IMG/VR virus record: IMGVR_UViG_3300032313_001465
Location: 84,582 to 148,581 of that record
DNA length: 64,000 nucleotides
From: a virus
Direction: 5' to 3' (one strand)
Below are positions 38,889 to 55,426 of the stretch, piece after piece. Under the pieces are notes generated by a model, which saw only the letters and a program-made list of their open reading frames with translations, was not told the DNA's origin and did not search any database. Both the position numbers and the translations under genes were made by a program. The first letter of the stretch is position 1. Each line of letters opens with the position of its first letter.

Positions 38889-40388
38889 ATGAAAAAACAA
38901 TATAATTCAAAAATTATACAATATTCAATATCTGGGGATGTTATAAATATATTTAATTCACCACATGATGCTGTACATATTGTTAATTATGATTCTATAA
39001 TTAGTTGTTGCAAGGGAAAATATAAAACAGCAGGTGGATTTATATGGGAATTTGAAGATAATAAAATTCCAAATATATCTAAGGACGGAGACATACAATG
39101 TAAAATATGCAAATCCAAAGAATCAGTACGTTCTATGGCTATGCATTTAAGGTGGGTACATAACATAAAAACAAATGAATATGTAAAGGAGTTTGGAGAA
39201 TTTAGACCTAAAGAACTAAAATCAAATACAAAAAAACAAGAATCTGGGTTTGAATGTAAGGAATGTGGTGAAAAATTAAAAAGTAATCAAAATTTAATGT
39301 ATCATATTACAAAGTCTCACCCTGAAATAACTAAACATGACTATATAATTAAACATTTATATAAGGAAATCCATCCAACTTGTAAATGTGGATGTGGGGA
39401 GGAGGTAACAATATTAGAAAACGGTAAAAATTGTGATTTAGGTAAAGAAACGTATTCTAGAGACTATATAAAAGGACACTGGGATTGGGAAGTATTTTCA
39501 AACATAGGGAAACAATCTAAAGAAGAAATAAAATTAGTAGATTTCATAAAAACAATATATTCAGGTGAAATCCAAACCAGTGTTAGGGGGATAATCCCTA
39601 AATCAGAAATAGATATATATTTACCTGAATTAAATATTGGAATTGAATATAATGGATTATATTGGCACTCTGAAAAAGGAGGGAGATTTAAAGAATATCA
39701 TTTAGAAAAATTAAAAAAAGCTAATGAAGTAAATATTAGATTAATACAAATATTTTCAGATGAGTGGTTAAATAAAAATGAGATTACTAAAAATAAACTA
39801 ATATCAATCATTCAGCCTAAATCAAATAGAGTATATGCTCGAAAGTGTAATATAAAAGAAATATCATCAACTGATAAAAATATTTTTTTAAATAAATATC
39901 ATATTCAAGGTGAAGATAGAAGTACATATAAGTTAGGAATTTTTAATTTAGATGAATTGATAGGAGTTATGACTTTTTCCAAACCTAGAATATCATTAGG
40001 AGGTAATATAAAATTAGAAGATACTTATGAATTATCAAGGTACGCCTCTTCAACATATATTGTTGGTGGAGCTGCTAAATTAATAAAATATTTTAAAAAA
40101 CTCATCAACCCAAAATTAATATATTCATATTCAGATAATAGATGGACTAATCCTAACAATAATATGTACCTGAAATTAGGGTTTAAACATGTTAAAACTT
40201 CCTCCCCTAATTATTTTTATACAAAAAATTATCTAACACGAATTCATAGATATAATTTTAATAAATTTAATCTTAAAAAAATGGGAGCAGATGTACAAAA
40301 TCATACTGAGTTTCAAATTATGGAAGGATTGGGATATACTAAAATATGGGACTGTGGTTCTTCTAGGTATGAGTTAAAATTTAGTTAA
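38889..40388 (+). CDS. EDxHD-type homing endonuclease with NUMOD1-like and zinc-finger domains
   Basis: Domain order: NUMOD1-like repeat at the N-terminus (IIQYSISGDVINIFNSPHDA), two C2H2-like fingers (CKICK, CKECG with HLRWVH and HITKSH), a CKCGCG cluster near residue 160, then a Vsr-like EDxHD nuclease core (EIDIYLPELNIGIEYNGLYW, then H in WHSE and YHLEK, D in FSDEW, about residues 238-300). A C-terminal domain (IYSYSDNRWT, YTKIWDCGSSRYEL) is shared with the minus-strand gene at 49849. Free-standing, after the capsid terminator. Confidence 0.78.
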   Translation: MKKQYNSKIIQYSISGDVINIFNSPHDAVHIVNYDSIISCCKGKYKTAGGFIWEFEDNKIPNISKDGDIQCKICKSKESVRSMAMHLRWVHNIKTNEYVKEFGEFRPKELKSNTKKQESGFECKECGEKLKSNQNLMYHITKSHPEITKHDYIIKHLYKEIHPTCKCGCGEEVTILENGKNCDLGKETYSRDYIKGHWDWEVFSNIGKQSKEEIKLVDFIKTIYSGEIQTSVRGIIPKSEIDIYLPELNIGIEYNGLYWHSEKGGRFKEYHLEKLKKANEVNIRLIQIFSDEWLNKNEITKNKLISIIQPKSNRVYARKCNIKEISSTDKNIFLNKYHIQGEDRSTYKLGIFNLDELIGVMTFSKPRISLGGNIKLEDTYELSRYASSTYIVGGAAKLIKYFKKLINPKLIYSYSDNRWTNPNNNMYLKLGFKHVKTSSPNYFYTKNYLTRIHRYNFNKFNLKKMGADVQNHTEFQIMEGLGYTKIWDCGSSRYELKFS

Positions 40389-44982: not shown

Positions 44983-45492
44983 ATGGCATTATTTGGATCT
45001 AGTCGAGACGTGTCTTTAGTAAGGCATTTAAATAAAGAATTATTACATAATGTAATAAATCAACAGTGTGCCTTTTATAAGTACGAACTTGAAAAAACAA
45101 ATACTAATATATATGGAGAATCAGCAGGCGGGAAGTATTATTCTGGACCTATATTATTTAACTCATTAATTAACATTGGAGACAATACAAGTCCAACAAA
45201 TGATTTTGGAGTAGATTTTGATTGGAGTATTACAGTAGCATTATTAAGAGATGATTTAGTAGAAGCGAATGTCCATCCTGAAGTAGGGGATATTATATTA
45301 TATCAAGAAAGTTATTTTGAAATAGATAATACAGTTTTTACGCAATTTTGGGCTGGTAAAGATCCTGATTATCCTTATGAAAACAATCCTTTAAATCCCG
45401 GATTATCCGAATTTGGATATAATGTTTCAGTAGTATGTTTTTGTCATTATGTTCCCGAAGACAGAATTGGGATTTCTAGAACCAGATTATAA
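44983..45492 (+). CDS. Neck protein (T4 gp14-like)
   Basis: MALFGSSRDVSLVRHLNKEL starts a helix, followed by a beta domain (FDWSITVALLRDDLVEANVH; GDIILYQESYFEIDN). Position directly after the gp13-like gene and before a gp15-like gene supports a neck role, although at 169 residues it is shorter than T4 gp14 (256). A GIY-YIG gene is inserted directly after its stop codon. Confidence 0.62.
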   Translation: MALFGSSRDVSLVRHLNKELLHNVINQQCAFYKYELEKTNTNIYGESAGGKYYSGPILFNSLINIGDNTSPTNDFGVDFDWSITVALLRDDLVEANVHPEVGDIILYQESYFEIDNTVFTQFWAGKDPDYPYENNPLNPGLSEFGYNVSVVCFCHYVPEDRIGISRTRL

Positions 45493-45500
45493 TATTTATA
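45493..45500 (+). promoter_or_regulatory. TATTTATA motif abutting a start codon
   Basis: TATTTATAATAAA is immediately followed by the ATG at 45506. If it is a promoter, the message would be leaderless or nearly so. Confidence 0.42.
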
Positions 45501-45505
45501 ATAAA

Positions 45506-46129
45506 ATGAAAATAACTTATATTTATTATCTATGTAAGGGAGATGGAATACCTATATATGTTGGGAAAACTAAAAATTCACCAAACCTAAGATTAAATGA
45601 TCATCATTTTAAAAAAGAAAAAGAATTAAAAATAGAAATTATAGATGAAGTTCCCACTTCTGAATGGGAATTTTGGGAAAAACACTATATAAGTTTATTT
45701 AAAAGTTGGGGGTTTGAGTTAATTAATAAAAATATAGGAGGAGGTGGTCCTCAAGGAGGATATTTTTTAACTCAAGATATTAAAGATAAAATAGGCAAAT
45801 CTAATTCTAAACTTAAACCTAAAGGATTCGGGGATAAACTAAGTAAAATAAAAATGGGCACTCCTCTACCATTAGGGACTGGAGATAAAATAGGAAAAAG
45901 TAAAACAAACCATAAGTGTTATAGTGATCCTAAACGAGGAGAAAAAATTAGAGAGTCTAAAAATAAACCTGTCCTTCAATATGATTTAAATGATAATTTT
46001 ATTAAAGAATTTGAAAGTGGACAACAGGCATCTAAACATACACTAATAGATGCTAGAGGTATATCATTATGTTGTAGAAATAAAGGAAAAAAAGCAGGTG
46101 GATTTAAATGGAAATTTAAATATTTATAA
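45506..46129 (+). CDS. GIY-YIG homing endonuclease with NUMOD-type tail
   Basis: The ATG at 45506 is chosen; a longer in-frame ORF from 45449 would overlap the neck gene. Core: YIYYLCKGDGIPIYVGKT (residues 4-21), then WEFWEKHYISLFKSWG with the catalytic Glu region. NUMOD3-like Gly/Lys segments (KGFGDKLSKIKMG) and a NUMOD1-like unit (VLQYDLNDNFIKEFESGQQA) follow. Its closest relative in the window is the gene at 20290. Free-standing between gp14-like and gp15-like genes, both intact. Confidence 0.85.
   Translation: MKITYIYYLCKGDGIPIYVGKTKNSPNLRLNDHHFKKEKELKIEIIDEVPTSEWEFWEKHYISLFKSWGFELINKNIGGGGPQGGYFLTQDIKDKIGKSNSKLKPKGFGDKLSKIKMGTPLPLGTGDKIGKSKTNHKCYSDPKRGEKIRESKNKPVLQYDLNDNFIKEFESGQQASKHTLIDARGISLCCRNKGKKAGGFKWKFKYL
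46121..46128 (+). promoter_or_regulatory. TATTTATA motif, candidate late promoter
   Basis: TATTTATAATAAA encodes the last codons and stop of the GIY-YIG gene and lies 7 bases before the ATG at 46136. Confidence 0.42.
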
Positions 46130-49073: not shown

Positions 49074-49111
49074 CCTCTTCGTATATGTATAATAAACGAA
49101 GGGGATTTTTT
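49074..49111 (+). terminator. Rho-independent terminator after sheath gene
   Basis: CCTCTTCGT pairs with ACGAAGGGG (one G-U pair) around a 13-base loop, then six T. The T-run abuts the ATG of the GIY-YIG gene, so the terminator sits where that gene's leader would be. Confidence 0.8.
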
Positions 49112-49819
49112 ATGGTAATATATATTACAACAAATGCAATTAATGGTAAAAAATATATAGGTAAGGATTCAAATAATAATCCTAAATATCTAGGCTCTGG
49201 TACTTTATTAAAAGATGATATAATTAAGTATGGTAGAGATAATTTCAAAAAAGAAATATTAGAGCACTGTAATACTGATGAAGAATTAATGATAAGAGAA
49301 AGTTATTGGATTAAATACTATAATGCTATATTATCTGATAAATACTATAATTTAGTAGATTTTAGTGCTGGGTGGAATTTGAATAAACTTGGGGAAGAAA
49401 AATATAATTTTATTAGAGAAAAATTATCTAAGTCTAAAATAGGCATAAAACCCAATATAAAAGATAGGGATGCTAAAAATAAAAAAATTCAAAAATCATC
49501 AAAAGGGAAAGCAAAACCTGAAGGATTTGGTGATAAAATATCTAAAACTAAACAAACCCAAAACCTTAAATATTCTCAAGAACACTGTGATAAAATATCT
49601 AAAGCCAAAACCGGAAAAAAACAACCCCAATCATTTTTAGATAAAAAATATAAACCTATATTGCAACTAGATAAAGAAAATAACATAATATGTACATTTA
49701 AAAGTATAAATGATGCGGCTAATAGTAATTTATTATTTAAAAGATCTAATATAAGCTGTTGTTTAACAGGACTTTCAAAATCTGCATATGGTTTTAAATG
49801 GATATATAAAAATAGTTAA
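49112..49819 (+). CDS. GIY-YIG homing endonuclease, 235 aa
   Basis: The ATG at 49112 is used because the upstream ATG at 49085 lies in a terminator loop. VIYITTNAINGKKYIGKDS (residues 2-20) is the catalytic core, followed by YLGSGTLLKDDIIKYGRDNF and RESYWIKYYNA with the Glu. NUMOD3-like (KPEGFGDKISKTK, EHCDKISKAKTGKKQP) and NUMOD1-like (ILQLDKENNIICTFKSINDA) elements bind DNA. This subfamily differs from those at 20290 and 45506. How it is transcribed past the terminator is unclear. Confidence 0.85.
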   Translation: MVIYITTNAINGKKYIGKDSNNNPKYLGSGTLLKDDIIKYGRDNFKKEILEHCNTDEELMIRESYWIKYYNAILSDKYYNLVDFSAGWNLNKLGEEKYNFIREKLSKSKIGIKPNIKDRDAKNKKIQKSSKGKAKPEGFGDKISKTKQTQNLKYSQEHCDKISKAKTGKKQPQSFLDKKYKPILQLDKENNIICTFKSINDAANSNLLFKRSNISCCLTGLSKSAYGFKWIYKNS

Positions 49820-49842: not shown

Positions 49843-49869
49843 GGGAACCTATTTAGGTTCCCTTTTTTT
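49843..49869 (+). terminator. Terminator between convergent homing genes
   Basis: GGGAACCT pairs with AGGTTCCC around ATTT, followed by seven T. A shorter A-run on the left would give T on the other strand, so it could also serve the minus-strand gene whose coding end overlaps it. Confidence 0.8.
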
Positions 49870-51333
49870 ATATATAAATTTCATATTACCACAATCCCAA
49901 ACCCTCCTAAATCCATTATCTAACATGTTTTGATATTCCGATTTTTCTGCATCAAATATATCTAATAATTTATTTAATTTGTGTTTTTGACATGACATCC
50001 TATTTAATATATTATTATTTTTCCAATATATGTAAGATGGAGATGTATTAGTATTAAATTCAAAACCTAATGTTTTATACAAATTCCCATCAAAAAACCT
50101 CCTATCAGCAAAACTCACAATATCTAAATTATCATTATTACTAATGAAATATTTAAATAATTTTGAGGCTCCTCCGACAACAGTAGTATTTAATTTATTA
50201 CAAAATCTAATCATTTCAAATTCATTTGAATTTTTCTTAAATCTATTTTTACCAAAAGTCATAATAGAAACTAATTCATTATTATAATACAATCCTAAAG
50301 AAACAGAAGCATGAGTATAACCTTGCATGTGATTTTCATTTAGAAATTTTCTAATTATAGTAGTATCTTCAATTTTATTAACTGTACATTTACGAGCATA
50401 TATTTTATCATCAAATACTCCCAATTTACTTAAAATTATAGATTGTATAATTGGTTTTTTAAAAATCCATTCATAATCTAAAATATGAATTAAATTAATC
50501 CCCACTTCATTACATTTTTCTGTTTTATATAAATGGTAATTTTTATATTTCCCCATAGATTCTGAATGCCAGTATACTCCATTTATTTCAATAGCTAAAT
50601 TATGTGACTTTATAAAAACATCAATTTCCTGTCTATTAGGTAATATATCTCTTCTATTTAAACATATATCTGAAGATAAAAGATGATTAGATAAGAAAAC
50701 TACCAATTCATCTTCAATTAAAGAGTATCCTTTATAATCAGAACACTTACATGATGGAAGATAACCATTACTTAAAAATACTTCAGTAACCTCAGAACAT
50801 TTATTACATTGAAATTTAAATTTATTCCTAAATAAATGATTTACTTTATTTTGCTCTAAATATTCTTTATCAAATAAAGGAACCATTCCGGATGTATTTT
50901 GATAGTTTATTAATTTTTCCCACTTTAAATTAACAAAATTTTTTCTATCATGTATTTGCCCTTTTAATTTTACAGATATCTTATCTGAAATATCTTTATT
51001 TTGAGATGCAAATACACACCCATATCTTTCAAAAACAGTATTGTTAGATTTATCTTTAAACTCTTTAACTAAAAATGGATTATTAACACCATATTTTTCA
51101 ATTAAATTATTTTTATATTTATCTTGTACTTCTTTAGATTTAAAGGCTATTTCATTCCCATATTTTTCTAAACATGTTTTTTTTCTTTTTTCCATCCACT
51201 CTCTATCAACTCCCTTATGTTGTTGAGCACATTTTTTAGTACAAAAATCTCTAGCAGATGAGGGTCGAGTTTCAAACATAACGGAACAATGTTTACATGT
51301 ATTTTGAATTGGTGGTTTTTTTGGACGTGCCAT
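49849..51333 (-). CDS. EDxHD-type homing endonuclease on the minus strand
   Basis: The only minus-strand gene in the window. N-terminal zinc knuckle (CKHCSVMFETRPSSARDFC, then KKCAQQH), repeated YG-x-x-N/F units (TCLEKYGNEIAFKSKEVQ, then IEKYGVNNPFLVKEF) that look like NUMOD-type DNA-binding modules, then a second Cys cluster (CNKCSE, CKCSD). The nuclease core is EIDVFIKSHNLAIEINGVYW, WHSES, YHLYK and HILDYEW. The C-terminal domain (IVSFADRRFF, RVWDCGNMKFIY) is shared with the gene at 38889. It lies between sheath and tube. Confidence 0.78.
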   Translation of the reverse strand: MARPKKPPIQNTCKHCSVMFETRPSSARDFCTKKCAQQHKGVDREWMEKRKKTCLEKYGNEIAFKSKEVQDKYKNNLIEKYGVNNPFLVKEFKDKSNNTVFERYGCVFASQNKDISDKISVKLKGQIHDRKNFVNLKWEKLINYQNTSGMVPLFDKEYLEQNKVNHLFRNKFKFQCNKCSEVTEVFLSNGYLPSCKCSDYKGYSLIEDELVVFLSNHLLSSDICLNRRDILPNRQEIDVFIKSHNLAIEINGVYWHSESMGKYKNYHLYKTEKCNEVGINLIHILDYEWIFKKPIIQSIILSKLGVFDDKIYARKCTVNKIEDTTIIRKFLNENHMQGYTHASVSLGLYYNNELVSIMTFGKNRFKKNSNEFEMIRFCNKLNTTVVGGASKLFKYFISNNDNLDIVSFADRRFFDGNLYKTLGFEFNTNTSPSYIYWKNNNILNRMSCQKHKLNKLLDIFDAEKSEYQNMLDNGFRRVWDCGNMKFIYKKREPK

Positions 51334-51426: not shown

Positions 51427-51915
51427 ATGGCAGTATTAAACCCAAATGAAATATTCTTTACGGCATTCGAGCCTAAACAGCAAAATAGGTTTATTATGTA
51501 TGTTGATGGTATTCCATCATATACTATTAAAGGAATAAGCGCAATTACTTTAACTCAAGACGAAGTAGTATTAAATCACATTAACATTTTACGTAAAGTA
51601 AAAGGAAAATCAAAATGGAGTAACATCACAATGACTCTTTTTGATCCAATCACACCTTCCGGAGCTCAAGCAGTAATGGAATGGGTACGTTTACATCACG
51701 AATCAGTAACTGGTAGAGATGGTTATTCTGACTTTTATAAGAAAGATTTAACTATGAACGTATTAGGTCCAGTAGGTGATATCGTAAGTGAATGGATTAT
51801 TAAAGGCGCTTTAATTGTAAATGCCAACTTTGGTGAGTATAGCTGGGATAATGAATCTGCAGCACAAAACTTAACACTGGAAGTCGCAATGGATTATTGT
51901 GTGCTCAATTATTGA
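51427..51915 (+). CDS. Tail tube protein (T4 gp19-like)
   Basis: At 162 residues it equals T4 gp19 (163). It begins NPNEIFFTAFEPKQQNRF and has the tube-family beta core, including ITMTLFDPITPSGAQAVMEW and the C-terminal LTLEVAMDYCVLNY. Hexameric rings stack to form the DNA conduit inside the sheath. A strong terminator follows. Confidence 0.92.
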   Translation: MAVLNPNEIFFTAFEPKQQNRFIMYVDGIPSYTIKGISAITLTQDEVVLNHINILRKVKGKSKWSNITMTLFDPITPSGAQAVMEWVRLHHESVTGRDGYSDFYKKDLTMNVLGPVGDIVSEWIIKGALIVNANFGEYSWDNESAAQNLTLEVAMDYCVLNY

Positions 51916-52021: not shown

Positions 52022-52780
52022 ATGTCAAACGAAGTTACAAACAAATCCCCATTCCCAACTGAAATAGTTGAATTACCTTCTAAAGGTTTAGTCTATCCAT
52101 CAACAAATCCGCTTTCAAGTGGAAAAATTGAAATGAGATACATGACTGCAGCCCATGAAGATATTTTAACAAATCAAAGTTACATTCAAAATGGTACAGT
52201 TTTGGATAAATTAATTGAATCCCTTATAGTATCAAAGATTAATTATGGGGATATTATAGTTGGTGATAAAAATGCATTATTAATAGCAGCCCGTGTTTTA
52301 GGATATGGAAAAGATTATGAATTTACTTACAAAGGAGAAAATGTAACTGTAGATTTAAGTACATTAGAACCTAAACCTATTGATGAAAGTTTATTCACTC
52401 CTGGTAAAAATGAATTTGAATATGAATTACCATCATCAGGTACTAAAATTACTTTTAAGTTATTAACACATAGTGATGAAAATAAAATAAATCAAGAACT
52501 TCAGGGATTAAAGAAAATCAATAAAAATGCTTCACCAGAATCATCTACTAGGTTTAAATACATGATTACCTCAGTTAATGGAGATAGTACAACAAAAACA
52601 ATTAGAGAATTTGTTGATAATTATTTTTTAGCTAAAGATACTAGATCACTTCGAGAATATATTAAGTTAATTCAACCAGATATCGATATGAAATTTGATT
52701 TTGAAGGTCCAAATGGCTTAGAGGAGGGCTTAACGATCCCTATGGGGATTAGCTTTTTTTGGCCTGACGCAAGAATATAG
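52022..52780 (+). CDS. Tail assembly chaperone, short (zero-frame) product
   Basis: A cytoplasmic assembly factor is inferred from its place between tube and tape measure genes, where contractile phages encode the G-type chaperone. The start FPTEIVELPSKGLVYPSTNP and MRYMTAAHEDILTNQSYI match T4-type proteins of this position (some are annotated gp26- or hub-like). A run of seven T at 52754-52760 near the 3' end and an open downstream frame suggest a frameshifted longer product. Zero-frame reading ends after FFWPDARI. Confidence 0.7.
   Translation: MSNEVTNKSPFPTEIVELPSKGLVYPSTNPLSSGKIEMRYMTAAHEDILTNQSYIQNGTVLDKLIESLIVSKINYGDIIVGDKNALLIAARVLGYGKDYEFTYKGENVTVDLSTLEPKPIDESLFTPGKNEFEYELPSSGTKITFKLLTHSDENKINQELQGLKKINKNASPESSTRFKYMITSVNGDSTTKTIREFVDNYFLAKDTRSLREYIKLIQPDIDMKFDFEGPNGLEEGLTIPMGISFFWPDARI
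52754..52760 (+). other. Probable frameshift site, T7 slippery run
   Basis: The zero frame reads AGC TTT TTT TGG. A +1 or -2 shift enters the frame GGC CTG ACG CAA, which is open to 53054. The -2 mode is known for Mu-type chaperones; -1 would not reach this frame. Confidence 0.6.
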
Positions 52781-53054
52781 ACTTCATTTATTTTCTCAAA
52801 TTCATGAAATAGTATTTCATGGAAATGGTGGCTATGATTGGGATACTATTTATAATATGCCTATTTGGTTACGAAAGTTTACATTTAATAAAATTAAAGA
52901 ATACTACGATAAACAAAATAAAAACCACCAAAACGAAGATTCATGGACTAATAAATCAGGAGCAGCTGCTCAAAACGCATCAAAAAATGTAAAAATACCT
53001 GATTTTATCAGTAAATCCCCACAAACATACCAAACTAAGGCATCGCGAAAGTGA
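52761..53054 (+). CDS. Tail assembly chaperone, frameshift extension (T-type part)
   Basis: This frame is open from the slippery run but has no ATG until 52857, so independent translation would lose 32 conserved-looking residues. The extension starts GLTQEYRLHLFSQIHEIVFH and includes YDWDTIYNMPIWLRKFTFNK, a pattern (Trp, then MPIxxRK and a basic helix) common in chaperone C-terminal domains. Fused product about 343 residues (+1) or 344 (-2). It would bind the tape measure protein as the tube polymerises. Its stop lies in a terminator-like hairpin. Confidence 0.68.
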   Translation, partial: GLTQEYRLHLFSQIHEIVFHGNGGYDWDTIYNMPIWLRKFTFNKIKEYYDKQNKNHQNEDSWTNKSGAAAQNASKNVKIPDFISKSPQTYQTKASRK

Positions 53055-53062
53055 TGCCTTTT
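53037..53062 (+). terminator. Terminator-like hairpin after chaperone
   Basis: AAGGCATC pairs with GATGCCTT around GCGAAAGT, followed by a short TT. The weak T-run suggests partial attenuation or an RNA-processing site. Confidence 0.55.
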
Positions 53063-53089: not shown

Positions 53090-55426
53090 ATGGCAGATCC
53101 TAAAGATAATCAAAATCAAGATACTTCAAAACTTCAAGAAACAATTAAATTTCAAAAAGAAGAAAATGATTTACTACGTAAAAGACTAACCCTTCAGGAA
53201 GAAGGATATTCTTTGTCAAGTTCATATTTAGAATCTTTAAAAGAGGTATTAGGAGTTAAAACTAAATTGACTACTTTTGAAAATGACATATATGGGATTA
53301 GTAAACAAATAAATAAATCTCTTCTTTCTCAAAAGGGAGAATATGACGATATTAAAGATTTAACCAAACAAATTAAATCGAATAAAGACTTAATAGCAAA
53401 ATCAACAATCTTAGAAAGAAATCTATCCAAAATAAGTAATGAAGAAAAAGTAAAAGCAGCTGCTAAAGAATTAAATAATATAAATAATTTTTATCATCAA
53501 AGACAAGAACTAATCCAAGGATTACAGGAAGAAAATGATTTAGAACAATTTCAATTAGATTTAATCCAACAAAGTATTAAAGAATTAAATGAAAAAATAA
53601 ATACTAGTGAAGAAAATTTCAATATATTAAATAAATCCTTAAGCGTTGAAGAACAGCAGCTTCTTTATTTACAGTTACAGACTAAAGAATTAGAAAAACA
53701 AAACGAAGAAAGAAAGGATGAAGAAAAATATCTCGAAGATTTAAATAGAAGAATGGGAGTAATAGGAGCCACCATGGCTGGGATTTCAAAAATTCCAATC
53801 ATCGGAAATCTTCCGGGAATAAGTACTGCTTTCGAAAAAGTCAAAACACAAATTAAAGAATTAGAAAAAGAAGAAAATAGAATTATTGGTAAAACTGAGG
53901 CTATGGGAATGGCCTTTAAGCATATTGGTAAGTCTATAAAAGAAAATCTACTTGATCCTACAGTACTTGTATCAGCGGCAGTAGGATTAATAGTAAAAGG
54001 ATTTTTATCATTAAACGAAGCCCAAACCGATTTTGGAAGAGAAACAGGAAGAACAGCAAGTAGGTGGGATGCTACAAGTACAAGTGTAACTACACTTTCT
54101 GATTATATTAAAACTGCTACTAATTTAACTAAACAATTAGGATTTCAAGCGGATTTAATTTTTACCTCTAAAACTCTACAAGAGGCAACTGAAATGGTTG
54201 AACTTATGGGAATGAGTAGTGAAGAGGCAGGTAAATTAGCTATGCTTTCTAAATTAAATGGAACTGAATTAAAAAAGGCAAATGAAAGTGTAATTAAAAC
54301 AGCGGGTAATTTTAATAAAACTAATAGAACAGCAATATCGCAAAAACAAATATTAAGTGATGTAGCCAATACCTCAAATGTTATTGCAGTTAATTTAGGA
54401 GGAAATGCTTCAAAAATTGCTCAAGCTAATTTAGAAGCAAGAAAGTTTGGTTTATCATTAGAAAAAGCAGATCAAATAGCAAGTTCATTACTAGATTTTG
54501 AATCATCTATCTCAGCAGAAATTGAAGCCGAATTATTAACTGGAAAAGATTTAAATCTTGAAAAGGCTAGATTATTAGCTTTAAATAATGATATGGCTGG
54601 ACTTACTAAAGAAATAGGCCAAAATCAAGATATAATAAATGCATATACATCAGGAAATAGGTTACAACAAGAAGCAATAGCTAAATCTGTTGGTTTACAA
54701 AAAGATGATATTGCTAAAATGATAATCGACCAAAAATCACAATTAGGATTAACAGATGAACAAGTACAAAAAGCATCTGGAATGAATGAAGAAGACTTCA
54801 AACGATTATCAGTTCAAGAAAGTATAAATAAATCAATTAGTAAAATGGGTGAAGCATTAGCGGGCCCATTAGAAATGTTAGCATCTATGGCTGAACATAC
54901 CGGGTTGATGAAAGCATTATTTGTAGGGATTGCAGGAATTATGACAGGAGCTATGTTAGTAGGATTAACAAAAAACATACTACAATTAGGGACAATGCTA
55001 GGTCTTAATTTAGCTAATGCGGCTGCTGCTACTGCAACCGCTGAAGCATCCACCTTAGGTTTAGCTACTCCTTTAATTATAGGAGGAATTGCACTAGTAA
55101 TGGGTGCAGTAATGGGAGCAGTAGGTACAGCAATGGCAATGAAAGATGGTGTTATTGATCCTAAAAAAGGCCCTATAGTTTCAGGAGAATTTGGTACAGT
55201 GCAATTAAATCCTAATGATCAAATAGTAGCAGGAACAGATTTAGCAGGTGATAAAAAGCCAAAAGGTGGTAAATCTCAACCTTCAATGGATATAACTCCT
55301 ATGGTACAAGAACTTCAAGCTGTAAAAGCTGTTTTAAATCAAATCCTAGCAAAAGATACTACAGTTAAAATGGATAGTAATAAAGTAGGACAAGCTCACA
55401 ATGTGGGAGCAGTTAAAGTTCAATAG
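53090..55426 (+). CDS. Tape measure protein (T4 gp29-position)
   Basis: The N-terminal 240 residues are a long coiled coil (QEENDLEQFQLDLIQQSIKE). A hydrophobic stretch (PTVLVSAAVGLIVKGFLS, near 288) and two more near residues 610-690 (LFVGIAGIMTGAMLVGL; IIGGIALVMGAVMGAVG) are typical of tape measure proteins that enter the host membrane. Helical repeats fill the middle. 778 residues exceeds T4 gp29 (590), implying a longer tail. It sits right after the frameshifted chaperone. Confidence 0.85.
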   Translation: MADPKDNQNQDTSKLQETIKFQKEENDLLRKRLTLQEEGYSLSSSYLESLKEVLGVKTKLTTFENDIYGISKQINKSLLSQKGEYDDIKDLTKQIKSNKDLIAKSTILERNLSKISNEEKVKAAAKELNNINNFYHQRQELIQGLQEENDLEQFQLDLIQQSIKELNEKINTSEENFNILNKSLSVEEQQLLYLQLQTKELEKQNEERKDEEKYLEDLNRRMGVIGATMAGISKIPIIGNLPGISTAFEKVKTQIKELEKEENRIIGKTEAMGMAFKHIGKSIKENLLDPTVLVSAAVGLIVKGFLSLNEAQTDFGRETGRTASRWDATSTSVTTLSDYIKTATNLTKQLGFQADLIFTSKTLQEATEMVELMGMSSEEAGKLAMLSKLNGTELKKANESVIKTAGNFNKTNRTAISQKQILSDVANTSNVIAVNLGGNASKIAQANLEARKFGLSLEKADQIASSLLDFESSISAEIEAELLTGKDLNLEKARLLALNNDMAGLTKEIGQNQDIINAYTSGNRLQQEAIAKSVGLQKDDIAKMIIDQKSQLGLTDEQVQKASGMNEEDFKRLSVQESINKSISKMGEALAGPLEMLASMAEHTGLMKALFVGIAGIMTGAMLVGLTKNILQLGTMLGLNLANAAAATATAEASTLGLATPLIIGGIALVMGAVMGAVGTAMAMKDGVIDPKKGPIVSGEFGTVQLNPNDQIVAGTDLAGDKKPKGGKSQPSMDITPMVQELQAVKAVLNQILAKDTTVKMDSNKVGQAHNVGAVKVQ

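Follow-up and report, generated by a model that had tools for sequence, protein, structure and literature searches.

In phage lambda, gene G gives a short tail assembly chaperone and a frameshifted long form (G/GT), and it lies ahead of the tape measure gene. The lambda shift is −1 at GGGAAAG, and the 252-residue G described here is nearly twice as long as lambda G. prfB (RF2) resembles the site described here in its upstream Shine-Dalgarno (SD)-like element and in P-site slippage from CUU/UUU onto UUU, as proposed below; prfB has UGA in the A site and its SD 3 nt away, whereas our site has UGG in the A site and GGAGG 26 nt away. In T4, the two forms come from two paralogous genes of the same protein family, gp26 resembling the short form and gp51 the short form plus a C-domain. 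Among contractile phages of other hosts, the haloarchaeal myovirus HSTV-2 likewise shows a +1 frame relation in its chaperone gene, its host belonging to another domain of life; a 2016 review called it 'very likely +1' and described G-T frameshifting as conserved in long-tailed phages 'except T4' (PMC5009743). According to PMC10885494 and PMC12846349, which cite the work, the chaperone genes of T4-like phages were identified by Vladimirov, Gautam and Davidson (Virology 2022), who assigned the T4 forms to two genes; passages in these articles also mention T4-like phages with one short and one fused long gene (the PRFect authors, PMC10885494) and, citing the same study, poly-T −1 sites in T4-like phages (PMC12846349). 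An earlier sequence-only reading of the present locus held that T4 is not known for this mechanism, which needs updating in the light of the paralogues gp26 and gp51 as cited in PMC10885494 and PMC12846349.

Here we describe positions 52022–53054 of the window (the 64,000-nucleotide stretch that was analysed) within an IMG/VR virus record of 148,581 bases; this region is very probably a single tail assembly chaperone gene that yields two products, the longer of which, TAC-NC, would come from a +1 slip. Whereas T4 has two paralogous genes, a single gene with a +1 slip site would provide both forms. The zero-frame ORF (52022–52780, plus strand) has 252 codons and ends ATT AGC TTT TTT TGG CCT GAC GCA AGA ATA TAG, with the stop TAG at 52778–52780; its 252-residue product, TAC-N ('G'), is related to T4 gp26 as well as to the N-part of gp51. 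A second frame, offset by +1 from this ORF, is open from 52734, after a TAA at 52731, to the TGA at 53052–53054. The C-domain ('T', 52761–53054, plus strand) occupies 97 codons of it (52761–53051), and its frame can be reached from the ORF solely by a shift of +1 (or −2). The slip site TTT TTT TGG lies at 52754–52762 (plus strand), and the expected GT fusion is about 343 residues long. Seven consecutive Ts (T7) were found on the sense strand of 0 of the 14 other long ORFs checked, and 12 times on the plus strand of the 64 kb. The T-run and the 97-codon open frame needing +1 or −2, which had been noticed from the letters alone, were thus borne out, the T7 run being located at 52754–52760. A terminator-like hairpin at 53037–53060 overlaps the second-frame stop codon.

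The phage itself is of the T4 type, as indicated by a gp20 portal (PF07230, 7e-65), a gp23 capsid protein (PF07068, 2.6e-78), a gp17-like terminase and sheath homologues. The gene pair is located between a gp19-like tail tube gene (51427–51915, plus strand; phrog_4542, 5e-20) and a presumed tape measure gene (53090–55426, plus strand), which encodes 778 residues and was assigned by position and size; profile searches gave no family match for its product, and the gene at the same position in Flavobacterium phage immuto is annotated as tape measure. Four homing-endonuclease-like genes are found among the head and tail genes (38889–40388, 45449–46129, 49085–49819 and 49849–51333 (−)), the first and last of which have a Mom-like part, and no tRNA genes were found in the window. 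Both the TAC-N domain (one phrog_150 match) and the C-domain are present as single copies in the 148.6-kb record, which may be incomplete, so that neither a separate long-form gene nor a T4-like pair of separate paralogous genes was found there.

The product of 52022–52780 matched phrog_150 (6.6e-12), and T4 gp26 and gp51 both belong to phrog_150 and PF12322. Its match to PF12322 (E 1.9e-4) was below Pfam's cut-off (21.6 vs 24.5 bits); the relatives in RM378 and SP-15 pass this cut-off, and those in RM378, SP-15 and GXN1 match both profiles well. In hhalign, the G profile was only weakly aligned with single T4 sequences (Prob 7 for gp26, Prob 2 for gp51), and hence it is the PHROGs and Pfam profiles that link the N-domain to gp26/gp51. 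The two T4 proteins gave a 189-column alignment with each other (Prob 99.4), in which gp26 stops at the beginning of the gp51 C-domain. The C-domains of T4-type phages with a −1 arrangement aligned with the C-terminus of gp51, starting at the junction (Prob 97.6, E 3.5e-12), and the +1 C-domains matched the −1 C-domains (Prob 89.7, E 1.9e-6); compared directly with gp51, the +1 C-domain gave Prob 43 and E 2.5e-4, the stronger link running via the −1 group. No solved structure was matched to the protein by sequence search. An AF2 model of the N-part (pLDDT 90) had as its best two PDB matches YqbN (3klu, Z 5.2), a PBSX-type chaperone, and, from HK97, the tail assembly chaperone 2ob9 (Z 4.5); both are middling (about 90 residues, rmsd about 6 Å), and they support but do not prove a chaperone fold for TAC-N. 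The C-domain model was poor (pLDDT 68), and a fold search with it gave no matches. These comparisons support a tail assembly chaperone, as a TAC-N/TAC-NC pair, in a genuine T4-type phage; a chaperone in a T4-type phage is what the sequence-only reading had proposed.

Two scans of IMG/VR plus phage records yielded 162 related loci with both parts, and in 160 of them the homologue of the second part lies in the +1 frame, a count that includes L049 and L050, although the parts are separate genes there. Conservation of the T-run in relatives had been suggested as a check. In a set of 68 representatives (<85% nucleotide identity to each other), the motif TTTTTTTGGCCTGAC was exact in 55, the first Phe codon was TTT in all 68 (79.6% expected, p=2e-7), and the second codon, where it encodes Phe, was TTT in 62/62 (p=7e-7); elsewhere in these genes, TTT accounts for 79.6% of Phe codons and GAC for 16.3% of Asp codons. 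The following CCT (68/68) and GAC (61/61 Asp) were also invariant at the site, but these codons are constrained by the second frame too, and the Phe third positions are therefore the cleaner test. Within the interval that permits the shift, 121 of 121 distinct +1 loci have a TTT in frame whose next base is T or C; the smallest such interval is 20 nt, e.g., TAA-ACTTTTTTTGGCCTGACCTC-TAG. TGG is the A-site codon in most cases, and it occurs just 4 times among all other counted codons of the 68 genes. The frame arrangement and motif conservation are far beyond chance, and what is conserved is a slip-prone P-site codon allowing +1 re-pairing, a feature expected of +1 programmed ribosomal frameshifting.

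Upstream of the run, an SD-like GGAGG (52723–52727, plus strand) lies 26 nt from the T-run. GGAGG begins at −31 from the run in 46 of the 68 representatives, with GAG in place of GAA at −30 in 51/55 (14.5% expected, p=3e-38), and the remaining 45.5 kb of these genes hold it just 11 times. These counts show selection on the nucleotides themselves. The element is complementary to the anti-SD but is 26 nt away and has no start codon, and the 13 representatives that lack it retain the frame relation. A single fold showed GGAGG paired with the T-run, but this was rejected as the cause of the GAG codons, because the computed duplex energy with the run is equal for GAG and GAA (−2.6); with the anti-SD, it is −10.5 for GAG and −1.2 for GAA. 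A small hairpin, GATCCC-TATG-GGGATT (52735–52750, plus strand), may form between GGAGG and the slip site. Among the representatives, hairpins in this interval were modestly stronger than in synonymous shuffles (mean z −0.73, p=2.6e-4), compared with mean z of −0.23, 0.14 and −0.01 in three control intervals; no conserved pairs were found in the interval, for which RNAalifold gave no consensus. The downstream 80 nt are weakly structured (mean z −1.15 vs mononucleotide shuffles), and no Rfam match for an RNA stimulator was obtained; a conserved RNA structure as stimulator was set aside on these grounds.

The same hairpins bear on transcriptional slippage, in which RNA polymerase would drop one T or add two at T7 to give an in-frame mRNA. 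A terminator-like hairpin precedes the run in the window and could help, and the hairpins in the interval are slightly stronger than expected. A T7 run is short for transcriptional slippage, and sites with just three consecutive Ts (the TTTCTTTGG loci and GXN1) keep the frame relation, so that we consider this explanation distinctly unlikely. Five loci (L002, L017, L024, L004 and L007) carry such departures from the motif, namely TTT CTT TGG in immuto and others, TTT CTA TTC in LR756508, and TTC TTT CGT in Streptococcus GXN1, and in none of them is there a cognate −2 position, whereas each permits +1, by UUU to UUC or CUU to UUU. These variants (TTTCTTTGG, TTTCTA and TTCTTTCGT), being without −2 re-pairing, favour +1 over −2 and argue against transcriptional slippage also.

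An independent protein with its own start, at the ATG 52857–52859 (plus strand) or at an upstream second-frame start, is very unlikely, even though GenBank has a short separate ORF annotated at the second frame in immuto and a few loci do have a separate C-domain gene. This ATG is codon 33 of T and encodes the conserved Met of NMPIWLR. The MPIWLRK stretch, named in the sequence-only reading as typical of a chaperone C-domain, is indeed conserved, but its ATG is not the domain start: it lies inside the conserved domain, and conserved coding begins 32 codons earlier. No SD-like sequence was found before it. In 47 representatives without indels, divergence over codons 4–32 of the second frame was 0.25/0.15/0.48 at positions 1/2/3, a pattern that shows the stretch upstream of ATG 52857 to be coding in the second frame; by this measure, protein-type evolution of the second frame extends back as far as the T-run. 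No ATG, GTG or TTG precedes codon 32 of the second frame in 19 of the 68 representatives, and 35 of the 68 have no start codon near the junction.

Truly separate copies of the C-domain, moreover, lack the slip run. They are found at four loci, L049, its near copy L050, L066 and L160, where the C-domain starts at an ATG of its own and FFWPD is still the end of the first gene's product, coded TTC TTC TGG CCn GAT. The protein tail is kept and the slip run is lost, and by sequence these loci serve as natural loss-of-site controls. A GIY-YIG endonuclease gene lies between the parts in L049 and L050 (PF01541, 1.3e-5; NUMOD-like, 5e-7; coordinates 3718–4401 in L049), an apparent remnant of such a gene, judged by eye, lies at the junction in L160, and a short spacer divides the parts in L066. 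At the chaperone junction, a GIY-YIG endonuclease or, in L160, its apparent remnant is linked with slip-site loss and a new C-domain start.

If the ribosome shifted by −2 at T7, as it does in phage Mu, one extra Phe would be added; T7 allows re-pairing two bases back and the resulting frame is identical. This reading is highly improbable, since the TTT CTT TGG, TTT CTA TTC and TTC TTT CGT loci keep UUU then C/U yet have no cognate −2 position; of the two directions first considered possible, +1 is therefore supported and −2 disfavoured. A sequencing or assembly error splitting one gene, suggested by the homopolymer location, is already refuted by relatives and has a negligible probability, the identical state being present in 121 distinct loci that include the cultured immuto and Mel-JY01 and the separately read RM378.

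For the +1 slip, we infer P-site slippage with a slow A-site codon, by the ribosome rather than by the polymerase. Most ribosomes would stop at 52780 and yield TAC-N (252 residues). In a minority, a pause at the A-site codon UGG, while tRNA-Phe holds UUU in the P site, would let the ribosome move ahead by a single base (UUU to UUU or UUC); decoding would then continue with GGC CUG ACG and yield TAC-NC, the N-domain plus the 97-residue C-domain. By analogy with lambda G/GT, TAC-N would coat the tape measure protein, the C-domain of TAC-NC would recruit the tube subunit, and both would be expected to be absent from the virion.

In the wider family, the slip site of RM378 is TTTTTTTGG, with +1, and the chaperone genes of SP-15, LIS04 and GXN1 are also +1; the C-domains of RM378 (L005), SP-15 (L006), GXN1 (L007) and LIS04 (L173) are annotated as short hypothetical ORFs or are unannotated. 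Other T4-type phages, including Straboviridae, have a −1 site at the homologous place. The −1 genes (Kyanoviridae, the Aeromonas phiAS5 group, Rhizobium, Vibrio K575) share the terminal Phe-Phe slip place and an overlapping-frame C-domain with the +1 genes, and differ in using T_TTT_TTC and −1. The cyanophages have T_TTT_TTC in 26/26 representatives with the C-domain in −1, their second Phe being TTC vs 29% elsewhere (p=1e-14); they add GAG GG (GGAGGG) 10 nt upstream of the slip site and a separate conserved C-domain ATG, so that frameshift and own start are both possible in them. The phiAS5 group has the same T_TTT_TTC site with no start near it, and much the same is seen in Rhizobium IC12 and RL38J1, Atu_ph07, Paride and Vibrio K575; in Cygsa01, Vibrio K444 and LR756511, the arrangement looks like stop-start coupling. 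Given these −1 relatives, the phage is not, as had been supposed, a link from T4-type to other contractile phages, but rather a +1 variant inside a T4-type family that already uses the strategy.

In an unrooted tree of 40 rows, the duplicated gp26/gp51 set formed one clade (99/99) among single-gene −1 lineages, and the +1 rows formed one side of a branch with modest support (82/84), LR756511 being left unclassed for this split; a single +1 clade was not rejected (p 0.24). The +1 variant apparently arose by one switch from −1 at the homologous Phe-Phe site, the simpler reading of this unrooted tree. A tentative history, which we regard as possible rather than probable, is that one −1 to +1 change took place at the same Phe-Phe codons, that the +1 clade (Bacteroidota-type phages) gained a new kind of stimulator, an SD-like GGAGG at a fixed 26 nt that a small hairpin possibly draws close to the slip codon, and that homing endonucleases later split the gene in some lineages.

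The gp26/gp51 duplication had been considered as an unreported solution and was dropped, since the articles citing Vladimirov et al. 2022 place it there already. For this reason, what is offered as new is limited to the +1 clade, the splitting linked with endonucleases and the conserved GGAGG upstream, and it depends on the full content of that study. Annotation of the cultured relatives examined either gives the second product as a short hypothetical ORF or omits it. Two-product tail genes are common in phages, but a forward shift is rare in phage tail genes. With more than 100 natural variants of one +1 site, loss-of-site controls, and −1 relatives at the same codons, this clade is suited to asking what sets frameshift direction and how a two-product gene becomes two genes.
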